Assembly (NCBI RefSeq): GCF_031432975.1
Contig: NZ_CP133838.1
Location: forward strand, 3,906,001-3,970,000
From: Buttiauxella selenatireducens
GTDB taxonomy: Bacteria > Pseudomonadota > Gammaproteobacteria > Enterobacterales > Enterobacteriaceae
DNA length: 64,000 bases
Direction of reading: 5' to 3'
Shown: positions 1,796 to 6,481 of the stretch, in pieces
How the letters are laid out: every line of letters begins with the position of its first letter
Position numbering within the stretch: position 1 is the stretch's first letter
Made by a program: the position numbers and the translations under genes
Notes under the pieces: model-generated
Told to the model about the DNA's origin: nothing
The model's database searches: none
What the model saw: only the letters and a program-made list of their open reading frames with translations

Positions 1796-4408
1796 ATGCT
1801 CCGAGCTGAATTTTTGCGCTTTTTGCAGACATTAAACACCGTAGGCATACCAAACGAAGTTCGAAAAATTGCGAATTTGGTATTGGCAAACCTAGATGCA
1901 ATAGAACCATTAGGTACTAACCAAGGGCAACGGGTTAAGCGTGTAGTAGCTCTAGCGCAAACTAACTGGGATTCACTTAGTTCAGAAATCCAACCACTAC
2001 CTGAGCAGAATACAGAACTCGTTTCCTCTATCAGTCGGCTCAAAAGTTTGTCTGTTGGACCATTCAGAGGTTTTTCTCGACAGGAGGATTTTGATCTTGA
2101 TGCTCGCTTAGTTTTGATTTATGGGCCTAACGGTACTGGAAAATCCAGCTTTTGCGAAGCTCTTGAATATAAATTATTGGGGAGCGTTGCTGAGGCTGAA
2201 AGTAAACGCTTTCGTAATCAGAATGAGTATTTTAAAAATGCGCATGTTAATGACTTTACAATGCCAGAGGTTATTGGAGTAGGAGATCAAGGGCAGGAAG
2301 TTTCTATTGAAAGCAATGAAGCTTTATATCGTTTTTGTTTTGTTGAAAAGAACCGCATTGATAATTTTTCCAGAATTGCAGCACTAGCCCCATCAAGGCA
2401 AACTGAACTCATTTCGACGCTATTTGGATTGGATTTATTTAATGATTTCGTACGGAATTTTACGGCTGAAATTGATTCTAAATATATTGATCTTACTGGA
2501 ATAAAAGCTGCCCAACTAAAGGATAAACGCCTGACACTCTCAGGTGCTAATCAGCAGCTGGAAGCAAACAATGCTGAGTTACAAAAATTAGTTTCCGAGG
2601 AACAAACTTTAGCCACCCAATATCGTGAAGGTATAACCTTCCAACAAATGATTATTGAGATAAAAGGCGACGAGCAAAACAATGGTATCATCCAAAAACT
2701 TGAAGCAGAATTACAAACCCCGATAGGTAATAAAAGTAGCTTGACCTATATTGCATTACAAGAAGTAAGTGGCTTAATCATAAGTAACCTTACAGAATTG
2801 AATACAAAGCAGCAACAACTAGCTGCTGTAAGTCAGCAAGTTTCGTTCAAGAATTTATATAACGCAATTGTTCAACTACAACCAGACAGTCCTGAGCATT
2901 GCCCTGCATGCCATACTCAGCTAACACAAACACAAATAAACCCGTACACTCATGCAAATGAAGAATTGGTTAAACTTGAATTTTTAGCGACTCTGCAAGA
3001 GTCAATGTCACAGTTAGAACAAAAAATAATACAATTGATGCAGACTGTTTCGCAAATAATAAGTACCTGCTGCCATTGTCTTCCTCAAAGAAATATTCTT
3101 GAAAGTTATCTAACGCCCAGTGGAGGCACTTTGTGGAATGCTCTACAACAACAATTACAGGATGGTTCTACCCCATGGCAACATTTGGAGTCTCAGGTTA
3201 AACTCCTAGAAGAATCAGATAAGAAAATAGATGAAACAGCTCAAATACGTGAGGCCAAACAAATAGCACTTGGGAAGCTACGTGAGTTAGATCGTAAAAT
3301 AATAGTGCTACAGACAAGGAGAAATACTGCGCAACAAGTCATAGAATCGGCACAACAATTAATTAATAGTTTTTATACTAAAAATATGCAACTTATCGCC
3401 GATGTTGCACTGGAAGATGCAATTGTAAGAAAAAACTGTTTGATCTCAGGTTCGTACTCCCGATTTGTAGCAACTCTAAATGCCTATAAAGAGAGATTAC
3501 CTCAACAACTCGTCGCCAATCTTGGAGACAACGTTGTTACGCTGTACAATGCATTCAATCGAAACGATCTCCCTAGAGAGAAATTGTCTACGATCAAATT
3601 ACCATTGATACAAAATCAGCGGCTTGAAGTTTCATTCCAAAATAACCCTGAACAATACTTTGATGCATTACATGTTCTTAGTGAAGGGCATGTTCGCTGT
3701 ATCGGCTTAGCTATTTTATTAGCAAAAAATATTAATGAACGATGCCCTCTTTTGATATTTGATGATCCAGTTAATGCCATTGATGATGATCATCGCGAGT
3801 CGATCAGAAGAACCTTATTTGAAGATGTTTTTTTTGCAGAAAAACAGATTATTCTAGCTTGCCATGGTGAAGAGTTTTTCAAAGATATTCATAACTTACT
3901 ACCTGCTCAAGTTGCTGCACAATCAAGATCTTTCAGTTTCTTACCTCGCCTGGACGAGTCACATATTCGTGTTGATTTTAATTGTTCTCCGCGAAATTAT
4001 ATTATCGCAGCCCGAGGACATTTTGAGCGAAATGAGATCAGAGAAGCATTGGCTAAAAGTAGGCAGTCTCTAGAATCACTCATGAAAACAAAAGTTTGGC
4101 GCTATGTTAATAGATATGGAGATGGCAATCTTAGTCTAAAATTACGCTCATATACATCACCAATAGAGCTACGTAACCTATCAGAGCAAATTAAGAAACA
4201 GATTAACAAGGCAGATTTTAGCGATCCAAATAAAAATGAGGTATTTTCCCCAATTGATGCGTTGCTTGGACTAAATGGTGACTCACGCGAATGGCGTTAT
4301 CTTAATAAAGGGACGCATGAAGAAAATGACAGAGCCGAATTCGACAGAGCGACTGTATCCACTATGATTTCGGCTTTAGAAAACCTAGATCAGGCTATTG
4401 CTGGGTAG
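1796..4408 (+). CDS. SMC/Rad50-like ATPase with zinc-hook-like CxxC and C-terminal HEPN-type domain (RloC-like architecture)
   Basis: 870 aa. Residues 1-85 form a helical N-terminal region. Walker A GPNGTGKS is at 110-117. A long Gln/Glu-rich helical, probably coiled-coil section runs from about 240 to 520 and carries CPAC at 369-372, placed like the zinc hook of Rad50; a second Cys cluster (CCHC) lies at 425-428. An ABC-type signature-like segment (LSEGH) starts at 628 and Walker B with following acid (LLIFDDP) at 652-658. After the ATPase head, residues 735-870 look like a HEPN domain: an opening helix rich in Ala/Arg/Leu (about 738-763) and R834-x6-H841 (RYLNKGTH), the R-x4-6-H pattern of HEPN RNases. 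This combination is that of RloC/PrrC-type anticodon nucleases, in which the ATPase head controls an RNase. I infer a phage-defence or translation-arrest effector. Homology to RloC itself is not shown. AAGGA lies just before the start codon. Confidence 0.75.
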   Translation: MLRAEFLRFLQTLNTVGIPNEVRKIANLVLANLDAIEPLGTNQGQRVKRVVALAQTNWDSLSSEIQPLPEQNTELVSSISRLKSLSVGPFRGFSRQEDFDLDARLVLIYGPNGTGKSSFCEALEYKLLGSVAEAESKRFRNQNEYFKNAHVNDFTMPEVIGVGDQGQEVSIESNEALYRFCFVEKNRIDNFSRIAALAPSRQTELISTLFGLDLFNDFVRNFTAEIDSKYIDLTGIKAAQLKDKRLTLSGANQQLEANNAELQKLVSEEQTLATQYREGITFQQMIIEIKGDEQNNGIIQKLEAELQTPIGNKSSLTYIALQEVSGLIISNLTELNTKQQQLAAVSQQVSFKNLYNAIVQLQPDSPEHCPACHTQLTQTQINPYTHANEELVKLEFLATLQESMSQLEQKIIQLMQTVSQIISTCCHCLPQRNILESYLTPSGGTLWNALQQQLQDGSTPWQHLESQVKLLEESDKKIDETAQIREAKQIALGKLRELDRKIIVLQTRRNTAQQVIESAQQLINSFYTKNMQLIADVALEDAIVRKNCLISGSYSRFVATLNAYKERLPQQLVANLGDNVVTLYNAFNRNDLPREKLSTIKLPLIQNQRLEVSFQNNPEQYFDALHVLSEGHVRCIGLAILLAKNINERCPLLIFDDPVNAIDDDHRESIRRTLFEDVFFAEKQIILACHGEEFFKDIHNLLPAQVAAQSRSFSFLPRLDESHIRVDFNCSPRNYIIAARGHFERNEIREALAKSRQSLESLMKTKVWRYVNRYGDGNLSLKLRSYTSPIELRNLSEQIKKQINKADFSDPNKNEVFSPIDALLGLNGDSREWRYLNKGTHEENDRAEFDRATVSTMISALENLDQAIAG

Positions 4409-4734: not shown

Positions 4735-5199
4735 ATGGATACAGTAGAGGAGCTCAACGGAACGTATTTCTATGCGGGAAAATCCAATCTAACCGCTGCT
4801 GAACTTCTGTTCATGGTTTTTTGTGAAAACACTGCAAGCCAATTTGGTATTGGCGTTGCTGATTTTGGGGCTGTAATAGCGTTAGTATCAGGCCGTAACA
4901 ATCTTTGGACAAGAGCAAAGCCCATAAACGCCACGAAAGGGACCTCTTATGCCTCCAAAGCGGCACGAGCACTATTCAAAAAGACAAAGTTCCCTTTTGG
5001 CATTTCATTACCGACATGGCTTGGCGGCTACACTCCGTGGACAGCAAGACGAGTTATGGTTCGTAATATCGCTCCGTTTGTAGGACGTTCAATTCCACTT
5101 ATTGGTGAGATAATTCTTGCCTCAGATGTAACGCAAATCTCCTACCGGACCATACGTGACTACAACACTATAGCCAGAGGAAACGATAAGCTATGGTAG
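4735..5199 (+). CDS. Hydrophobic 154-aa protein of a Hcp-linked module, unknown function
   Basis: 154 aa; I cannot assign a named family. Two long hydrophobic stretches are visible, around residues 22-55 and 120-138, separated by a basic segment rich in Lys, Arg and Thr. There is no signal peptide and no obvious enzymatic motif. Its stop codon overlaps the next start by 7 bp, so translation is probably coupled to the DUF1493 gene, and hcp follows. Small membrane-active proteins beside orphan hcp genes are often type VI secretion effectors, so a membrane-targeting effector is my inference, with the neighbour as candidate immunity or accessory protein. A cell-envelope accessory protein is an equally open alternative. 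Confidence 0.6.
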   Translation: MDTVEELNGTYFYAGKSNLTAAELLFMVFCENTASQFGIGVADFGAVIALVSGRNNLWTRAKPINATKGTSYASKAARALFKKTKFPFGISLPTWLGGYTPWTARRVMVRNIAPFVGRSIPLIGEIILASDVTQISYRTIRDYNTIARGNDKLW

Positions 5200-5519
5200 A
5201 TAGTATCGAGCAGAGAGTTTACGAGTTTGTTCGGCCTTACGCTGGTGTCTATCTATTCAACATCAAAAAGATAGAACTAACCCCTGACACTGATTTTGAC
5301 ACTGATTTGAGCCTTGATGAGCTCGAAGTTGAAGATCTGATGAACGATTTCTTTGAAAAATTCAATGTTGAAAGAGGTAATTTCAACATTGAAACCTATT
5401 ATCCCAATGTTCCTTTTTCATGGAATCCGCTCAAGAAAACGGAACCTGTACCAGTTCCAGATTTCACTATCGGCATGCTGATCGAGTCAGCAAAAGCTGG
5501 GAAATGGTTGTTCGATTAA
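5193..5519 (+). CDS. DUF1493 family protein
   Basis: 108 aa, acidic. The C-terminal block ending in PDFTIGMLIESAKAGKW and the central FFEKFNVE/FNIETYYP pattern are characteristic of the DUF1493 family, small enterobacterial proteins with an acyl-carrier-protein-like size and helical layout. The phosphopantetheine-type DSL serine is not evident; the equivalent acidic region reads DTDLSLDELE. It starts inside the end of the preceding gene and is followed 22 bp later by hcp, so the three are likely one operon. An immunity or adaptor role for the preceding hydrophobic protein is inferred from position only. Confidence 0.75.
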   Translation: MVDSIEQRVYEFVRPYAGVYLFNIKKIELTPDTDFDTDLSLDELEVEDLMNDFFEKFNVERGNFNIETYYPNVPFSWNPLKKTEPVPVPDFTIGMLIESAKAGKWLFD

Positions 5520-5541
5520 TCAGAAGCAAGGAGCTTTTAAA

Positions 5542-6027
5542 ATGGCTGTACCTGTTCACTTATTTTTGACTGATGATGGCGGCGCAACGATCCGTGGTTC
5601 TTCCGATGTTGCAGACCGCGAAGGTAGCATAGAGTTACGAGGTCTGTACCACAGTTTAGCTATTCCCACCGATGCAGCAACAGGGAAAGTTACTGGTACA
5701 CGCCAGCATTCACCTTTCCAGTTTACTAAAGAGCTAGACAGCTCCTCTCCGTATCTCTTCAAAGCTGCCGCTACGGGCCAGACACTCAAATCTGCTGAAT
5801 TTCGTTTCTACCACATCAATGATGCAGGGCAAGAAGTGGAATATTACCGGATCACATTGGAAAATGTGAGAGTGATCTGCGTCAGCCCTGTAATGCACGA
5901 TACACGTGGTTGTCCCGGTACTGGTCACATGGAAGAAGTTGCTATGAATTACGAGAAGATCACCCATCTGTATAAAGATGGTAATTTGTTAGCTCATGAT
6001 GCATGGAATGAACGCCCCACTGCCTAA
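5542..6027 (+). CDS. hcp: Hcp, type VI secretion tube protein (orphan copy)
   Basis: 161 aa, the usual length for enterobacterial Hcp/TssD. The N-terminus MAVPVHLFLTDDGGATIRG and the internal TGTRQHSPF, ATGQTLKSAEF and NDAGQEVEYY segments are hallmark Hcp sequences. Hcp forms hexameric rings that stack into the secreted inner tube of the type VI secretion system and can carry small effectors in the ring lumen. No other T6SS structural gene lies in the window, so this is an orphan copy that would depend on an apparatus encoded elsewhere. AAGGAG lies 8 bp before the start. It closes the three-gene module and is followed by a terminator. Confidence 0.93.
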   Translation: MAVPVHLFLTDDGGATIRGSSDVADREGSIELRGLYHSLAIPTDAATGKVTGTRQHSPFQFTKELDSSSPYLFKAAATGQTLKSAEFRFYHINDAGQEVEYYRITLENVRVICVSPVMHDTRGCPGTGHMEEVAMNYEKITHLYKDGNLLAHDAWNERPTA

Positions 6028-6397: not shown

Positions 6398-6442
6398 CTT
6401 CTAAGCCGTAGGTCACAGGTTCGAGCCCTGTAGGGCGTACCA
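6398..6442 (+). other. Attachment-site-like 3' half of a tRNA-Arg(TCT) gene
   Basis: The segment runs from an anticodon loop CTTCTAA (anticodon TCT) through a complete T arm (ACAGG/CCTGT with loop TTCGAGC) to AGGGCGT plus ACCA. The 5' half of a tRNA is absent: the bases before the loop do not pair with the 3' anticodon stem (GCCGT would need ACGGC), and no acceptor partner ACGCCCT is found upstream. Such 3' half-tRNA copies mark the far end (attR) of islands integrated into a tRNA gene. The intact tRNA-Arg gene and the integrase are expected to the left of the window. Confidence 0.75.
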
Positions 6443-6481
6443 TTTAAATCAATGCGTTACGACAAAACCCACCGCTACACA

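Follow-up and report, generated by a model that had tools for sequence, protein, structure and literature searches.

The gene at positions 1796-4408 (+ strand) of the Buttiauxella selenatireducens sequence analyzed here, a stretch of 64,000 nucleotides (hereafter, the window) spanning positions 3906001-3970000 of a 5.2-Mb single-contig genome, belongs to a widespread bacterial protein family in which an ATPase that handles DNA is fused to a toxin domain predicted to cut RNA. The family is a new variant of the RloC/PrrC kind and is unusually broad in its partners: at least 19 of 59 family representatives lie near restriction or BREX genes, and the type of partner switches repeatedly along the family tree. 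ABC heads, a zinc hook, a fused HEPN-like domain and restriction company together suggest a gated, self-targeting ribonuclease (RNase) that backs up restriction once it has been overcome. We somewhat favor the hypothesis that these proteins are ATP-gated, self-targeting HEPN-type RNases that act, much like PrrC and RloC, as a movable second line of defense beside restriction and BREX systems.

Family, domain architecture and conserved residues

The family was found in species genomes, with at least 258 confirmed candidates and 79 retained loci drawn from many phyla, in plasmids, where tblastn gave matches in 27 records (24 with query coverage of 80% or more, and 21 of the 27 predicted to be conjugative), and in viral contigs (19 loci, part of them distant ATPase matches only). 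Within the window's taxonomic family the gene is rare and patchy, with 5 of 392 genomes positive at E 1e-30, i.e., the window's own genome, a genome with a 36%-identical copy, another with a broken copy and two with members of a sister group (below); it was found in none of the five other same-genus genomes among those listed (same threshold). A near-identity DNA search recovered it from 1 of 5426 E. coli genomes. The loci yielded 110 tblastn proteins, 32 of which were dropped before alignment (short, low-scoring or identical copies), and the remaining 78 were aligned with the window protein and clustered at 80% identity into the 59 representatives used throughout. A 50-sequence alignment (the 59 minus nine annotated-region loci) and a 49-sequence C-terminal set (also minus the truncated L057) were used where indicated.

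The open reading frame (ORF) of the window starts with ATG, encodes 870 amino acids (aa) and is a real coding gene. The sequence-only reading of this stretch had called its product an SMC/Rad50-like ATPase with a zinc hook, and this assignment held: Pfam matches are SMC_N (1.8e-14) and AAA_23 (1.8e-11), and the best PADLOC models are LmuB (83.5 bits, 4.9e-24, partial) followed by mad3 and DndD. Rad50/SMC-type heads rank first in a whole-profile search of PDB sequences, and the predicted full-length model best matches the folds of Rad50, SMC and Lamassu heads, LmuACB structures included; the named proteins among the best 50 matches in a viral fold library are mostly of the Rad50/SMC/recombination type. 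No Pfam, PADLOC or NCBIfam model spans the protein as one unit, and the NCBIfam scan gave nothing above any cut-off. The PADLOC candidate PDC-S06, whose top-scoring stretch falls in the ATPase lobe, was rejected; PMC11514479 lists it, giving no function in that passage.

All motifs lie on the + strand, and those located earlier are at the positions given for them: Walker A (GPNGTGKS, residues 110-117; 2123-2146), the zinc hook CPAC (residues 369-372; 2900-2911, flanked by model helices 352-360 and 383-428), a second Cys cluster (CCHC, residues 425-428; 3068-3079), Walker B (LLIFDDP, residues 652-658; 3749-3769, with DD instead of DE) and R834-x6-H841. To these we add the ABC signature LSEGH (residues 628-632; 3677-3691). 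Judged from the alignment, the zinc hook and the ATPase motifs are family-wide features, with G110, N112, G113, G115 and K116 of Walker A, C369-P-A-C372, S629-E630-G631-H632, D656, D657 and H690 invariant in 59/59 representatives. The second Cys cluster, which had been taken to be conserved, is local instead: position 425 is Cys in 31/59 and position 426 in 17/59, and the Cys of position 428 is outside the six commonest residues of its column. Residues 1-80 (1796-2035) form a conserved helical domain, with helices between residues 2 and 60 in the model and with R46 invariant in alignments of 13 and 50 sequences. This domain has no Pfam match at E<=10, and the N-termini of ten relatives gave a best match no better than 0.033, with no family assigned.

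The C-terminal domain (residues 735-870; 3998-4405) is very likely a HEPN-type RNase effector. The HEPN-like fold proposed for it earlier was borne out by prediction, the best VIA rows for the domain's model being HEPN domains and Csm6, though Foldseek with the same model gave no E-value under 0.001. The predicted domain is all-helical, as is the HEPN fold, and E760 (4073-4075) sits in helix 748-774, its second helix, where many HEPN families have an acidic residue. R834 (4295-4297) and H841 (4316-4318) had been proposed as the catalytic pair, and half of this proposal survives: H841 is invariant (59/59), whereas R834 is Arg in only 22/59, so that the likeliest catalytic Arg is R756 (4061-4063; 59/59). 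We therefore propose that R756 and E760, as an R-x3-E motif, together with H841 and with N837 (4304-4306) of a W-x2-L-N-x-G-x-H motif, replace the earlier pair; E760 and N837 are likewise invariant in 59/59, as are W768, W833 and G839, and R, E, N and H stay fixed while the rest of the domain varies. The name HEPN-like is used because the Rx4-6H motif of HEPN domains is present in the window protein but not conserved family-wide, although some HEPN families retain the His without the Arg, according to PMC3710099.

Pfam gave nothing significant for the window protein's own C-terminal domain, and scattered matches over the 49 C-termini, the best being unrelated (Pannexin_like, 0.00014, and DUF5113, 0.00015) and weaker ones including DUF4145 (0.032, three members) and HEPN (0.065, one member); the PDB sequence search with the C-terminal profile returned 16 rows up to E 10, with no HEPN entry among them. 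A sister group of five proteins (L105-L107 from viral contigs, and L153 and L154 from genomes of the window's taxonomic family; L106 and L153 end alike) keeps R749, R756, E760, W833, N837, H841, the zinc hook and LSEGH in 5/5. The same group bears a W-x2-Q-N-Q-E-H-H motif and an additional C-terminal tail.

Restriction and BREX partners

Neighboring genes were assessed on 625 ORFs of at least 90 aa from a mechanical caller, all of which were searched by phmmer with ten queries, while PADLOC scans took in sets of 10, 25 (read as one pooled result) and 9 neighbor or annotated genes, and Pfam scans sets of 10 and 8. With this coverage, the count of 19/59 representatives near restriction or BREX genes is a minimum; in the other 40, a restriction or BREX gene was not identified nearby. 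An upstream ORF is present in 58 of the 59 loci and lies on the same strand within 130 bp in 20, 11 of which have a restriction or BREX gene in this position, namely hsdS (L018, L026, L028, L048, L049 and L056), brxL (L024 and L047), type III res (L046 and L057) or a type IIG gene (L093). The rest of the 19 are L050 and L092 (type I), the window (IIG), and L004, L006, L014, L015 and L102 (type II or single restriction or methylation genes). This total takes in an hsdS-like piece only (L018), two loci at contig starts (L049 and L057), two on the opposite strand (L092, 843 bp off, and L102, 1.1 kb off), and L004, a Mrr_cat endonuclease by Pfam that is negative in PADLOC.

Type I genes lie beside or around the family gene in 8/59 representatives, the window not among them. 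Six hsdS neighbors compare with about 0.03 expected by chance at 58 loci, assuming ~3000 genes per genome and the 201 matches to PF01420 (HsdS domain) in 143 genomes of the window's class (sum of 65 listed rows), an estimate that ignores the clustering of defense genes and is applied to loci that come from other phyla too. The arrangement with hsdS, brxL and res is overlapping or near-overlapping, and in L026 the order is hsdM-hsdS-gene-hsdR (HSDR_N, 4.6e-30), which we take to be the order in which prrC is found as well. In both BREX loci, the family gene lies between brxL and a SbcD/metallophosphoesterase-like gene that starts at the family member's end. The stretches concerned are L024:10637-11233 and L047:10640-15570; in L047, the SbcD-like gene is followed by a SbcC-like one. 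In L050, the product of a gene lying between hsdS and a hsdR-like gene, upstream of the family member, is 649 aa long and weakly matches prokaryotic Argonaute (7.5e-07; L050:1767-3713).

On the family tree, six labels (five restriction/BREX types and integrative conjugative element, the latter being no restriction type) need 10 changes, compared with a least possible 5 and a shuffled mean of 11.9. Clustering by label is at most mild, values as low being reached in 13/200 shuffles for all labels and 199/500 for type I. The type I partner alone requires at least 5 changes by the starred branches. BREX, type III and type I partners occur together in a starred clade of 6. These counts come from a quick tree method, with long branches flagged at L015 and L102 and 38 unlabelled rows uncounted.

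Proposed mechanism and its alternatives

We propose the following model. The protein would be a one-chain defense toxin with a Rad50/SMC-like ABC head and a coiled coil ending in a zinc-hook tip, and its head would dimerize and restrain the C-terminal HEPN-type RNase. The head would sense a trigger, probably DNA ends or else the failure or inhibition of the neighboring DNA-restriction system, and an ATP-driven rearrangement would release the nuclease. The freed nuclease would then cut host RNA (tRNA, by analogy with RloC and PrrC) through R756, E760 and H841, with N837 assisting, translation would stop, and an antiphage effect would be expected to follow. Control of the nuclease by the ATPase head is likely, and the gene would be a movable second defense line that has been recombined beside many restriction and BREX systems. 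RloC is described as sensing DNA ends or breaks (PMC3874168). For the backup role, we see precedents in PARIS (PMC12839542) and PrrC (PMC3710099).

A functional tie to restriction and BREX, beyond mere neighborhood, is a closer call, which we hold tentatively and at slightly short of even. A bolder extension, namely that the family is a universal plug-in guard, with one gene swapped among type I, II, IIG, III and BREX systems and firing when any of them is disabled, seems somewhat unlikely to us; if true, it would mean that what is sensed is no single partner protein but a common state (unmodified DNA, DNA ends or anti-restriction proteins). PrrC reportedly established that an RNA-cutting suicide device can hide in a restriction locus. 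The present family suggests that this arrangement is general, one ATPase-RNase gene recurring beside most classes of DNA-modification defense. The partner switches provide natural material for asking what is sensed by guards of this kind, and the invariant residues offer simple targets for tests.

Alternatively, the protein might be a self-contained DNA-damage responder that senses breaks alone, as RloC does, with the restriction genes being fellow travelers in defense islands. DNA-break inducers activate RloC even when the host is deficient in restriction-modification (PMC3874168), and the 40 representatives without an identified restriction or BREX gene, the many copies in conjugative-element, plasmid or phage-plasmid settings, and a terminator-like hairpin upstream of the window gene (below) are all in line with independent action. 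Yet the (near-)overlap with hsdS, brxL and res and the place between hsdS and hsdR in L026 exceed what island company would give; the excess of hsdS neighbors over chance, in an estimate that ignores defense-gene clustering, also speaks against this reading. We regard independent action as unlikely, and as the strongest competitor of the ATP-gated RNase tied to restriction.

Comparison with known systems

The likeness to RloC and PrrC and the linkage to restriction, both suggested earlier from the sequence, were upheld, and the family probably works like RloC. RloC likeness was assessed with a set of 12 AAA_13-type proteins (L115-L122, L148-L150 and APECO1_RS04465) and comprises a CxxC zinc hook in a helical insert that splits the ABC ATPase, the LSEG signature, a DD Walker B and R-x3-E...H, as well as N-x-G-[ST]-H in several RloC-type proteins. 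In place of the YLNKGTH of this family, several AAA_13-type proteins carry FINRGSH or YINRGSH, and others have a different ending (e.g., NNEYSH). The RloC triad R692, E696 and H737 has been confirmed by mutation, the hook is reported to regulate the enzyme, and the coiled-coil/zinc-hook insert distinguishes RloC from PrrC (PMC2610378). The whole-profile comparison with the RloC-type set gave a probability of 98.6 (E 1.4e-15) over 221 columns that begin ahead of the signature and reach the C-terminus, and the comparison of the C-terminal domains only was weak (probability 5, P 0.0079), its register placing the RloC R-x3-E on R793-E797, which are variable in this family. Because the C-terminal alignment is not significant, the active-site likeness rests on motif, conservation and predicted fold.

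It is conceivable, then, that the family is a divergent true member of RloC rather than a separate branch, given the zinc hook, DD Walker B, R-x3-E...H and N-x-G-[ST]-H common to several RloC-type proteins and APECO1_RS04465. This is quite unlikely in our view, and the earlier suggestion of a new branch is retained. AAA_13 scores 19.5 bits on the window protein, below its cut-off of 36, and E760 and H841 are separated by 80 residues, as opposed to 36-52 in the RloC definition R-x3-E-x36-52-H (PMC2610378); it is on these two failures that the family is not filed as RloC. Further, the family carries the 80-residue N-terminal domain, which APECO1_RS04465 lacks, reads LSEGH at the signature, and has an ATPase that scores better with LmuB, mad3 and DndD. 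According to PMC2610378, 8/72 RloC cases fall in a type I or III locus, whereas this family is linked to several restriction types. PrrC likewise joins an ATPase to a HEPN-type RNase at its C-terminus, and its type I locus has a counterpart in L026, but the present family also pairs with BREX and with type II, IIG and III systems. We are not aware of an earlier account from the literature searched, in which a description of the family was not found; the ABC ATPase classification of Krishnan et al. 2020 may include it.

The APECO1_4465 group (ABC-HEPN, often in prophages) has an ABC ATPase, a CPFC hook, R-x3-E and YRYINRGSH in common with this family. From its prophage setting, we infer that the old tag APECO1_4465 refers to APECO1_RS04465; this protein differs in being 738 aa long without the N-terminal extension, with Walker A from residue 30 and LSEGE, and gave no match to PDB sequences at E 1e-5. 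Lamassu LmuB, the top PADLOC model, is likewise a Rad50-like zinc-hook ATPase, but in Lamassu the effector is the separate LmuA whereas it is fused here, and the Glu-to-Gln change in Walker B described as general for LmuB (PMC10586767) is absent from this family, which has DD (D657, 59/59). No LmuA or LmuC partner was found in the four window neighbor ORFs scanned, nor in the rows listed for ten neighbor genes of relatives, and no Mre11/SbcD partner was found in the same four ORFs. In PARIS, the AriA ATPase detects the phage restriction inhibitor Ocr and activates AriB, which cuts host tRNA (PMC12839542); the likeness lies in ATPase-controlled cutting of host tRNA, and the difference in AriB being a separate TOPRIM nuclease, not HEPN.

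Finally, a DNA-repair or DNA-organizing ATPase whose C-terminal helical domain is a non-catalytic, structural or RNA-binding part would agree with the Rad50, SMC and Lamassu head matches of the full-length model, with the non-catalytic nature of some HEPN domains (PMC3710099) and with the SbcD/metallophosphoesterase-like genes of L024 and L047, but is very improbable given the invariant R, E, N and H in an otherwise variable domain, a patchy spread unlike that of a housekeeping repair gene, the lack of SbcD among the window neighbors scanned and the presence of a SbcC of its own next to the SbcD of L047.

Island setting and further loci

The island proposed as the setting of the window gene is real, spanning 8.5 kb at a tRNA-Arg (tct) gene. 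A perfect 64-bp direct repeat occurs at L003:3878-3941 (the tRNA-Arg 3' end plus 19 bp) and, 8520 bp away, at L003:12398-12461, i.e., window 6398-6461 (+ strand, 100% identical), where it marks the right boundary; no integrase was found among the island ORFs scanned. The neighbor that had been read as a DNA methyltransferase (3' part at 1-1543, + strand) is more than that, being a type IIG restriction-methylation gene: its whole ORF (L003:4349-7543, 1064 aa) starts before the window and matches PADLOC REase_MTase_IIG at 3.1e-239 (1.6e-92 with the C-terminal 431 aa). The ATPase-HEPN gene begins 253 bp after it, and a terminator-like hairpin lies between the two (1592-1619, + strand; a 10-bp stem and a T run, by consensus match only), so that the two genes need not share a transcript. 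On the 3' side in the same island, window 4735-6027 holds STM2901-family, DUF1493 and Hcp (type VI secretion tube) genes.

Of the 20 loci with a same-strand upstream ORF within 130 bp, the nine not assigned to restriction or BREX at that position have genes for a PD-(D/E)XK protein (L052), a PIN-domain protein (L066), a DUF900 hydrolase (L044), a DUF6602 protein (L012), a phage Mu F-like protein (L103) and an unassigned 675-aa protein (L025), a DUF7380 gene that belongs to a type I operon (L050), the end of a MutS-like gene (L042) and a weak membrane-protein match (L017). An identical 874-aa member occurs across genera in Tistrella, Achromobacter, Pusillimonas, Stenotrophomonas and Pseudomonas, and a second one is common to Xenophilus, Pigmentiphaga and Methyloversatilis; the loci of identical copies are L012/L077 (one record), L074, L078-L081, L084 and L085; L075, L082 and L083; and L087, L089 and L091. 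L009 lies amid integrative conjugative element genes and has neighbors in common with L012, which points to recent spread by way of an element of this type. A decayed copy with several stops was seen at G028:C1:1919979-1922579 (L152, L155 and L156), in a genome of the window's taxonomic family.

Among the AAA_13 matches, L123, L130, L131 and L133 are ABC ATPases of ~400 aa with R-x3-E and a near-terminal Ser-His motif, and possibly represent a minimal RloC-like group; the similar matches L125-L129 have HsdR- or HsdM-looking ORFs, by eye, in the surrounding stretch. The E. coli A33 relative (L007) has a Shango-type system next to it (SngA and SngC profiles; L007:2945-8769).

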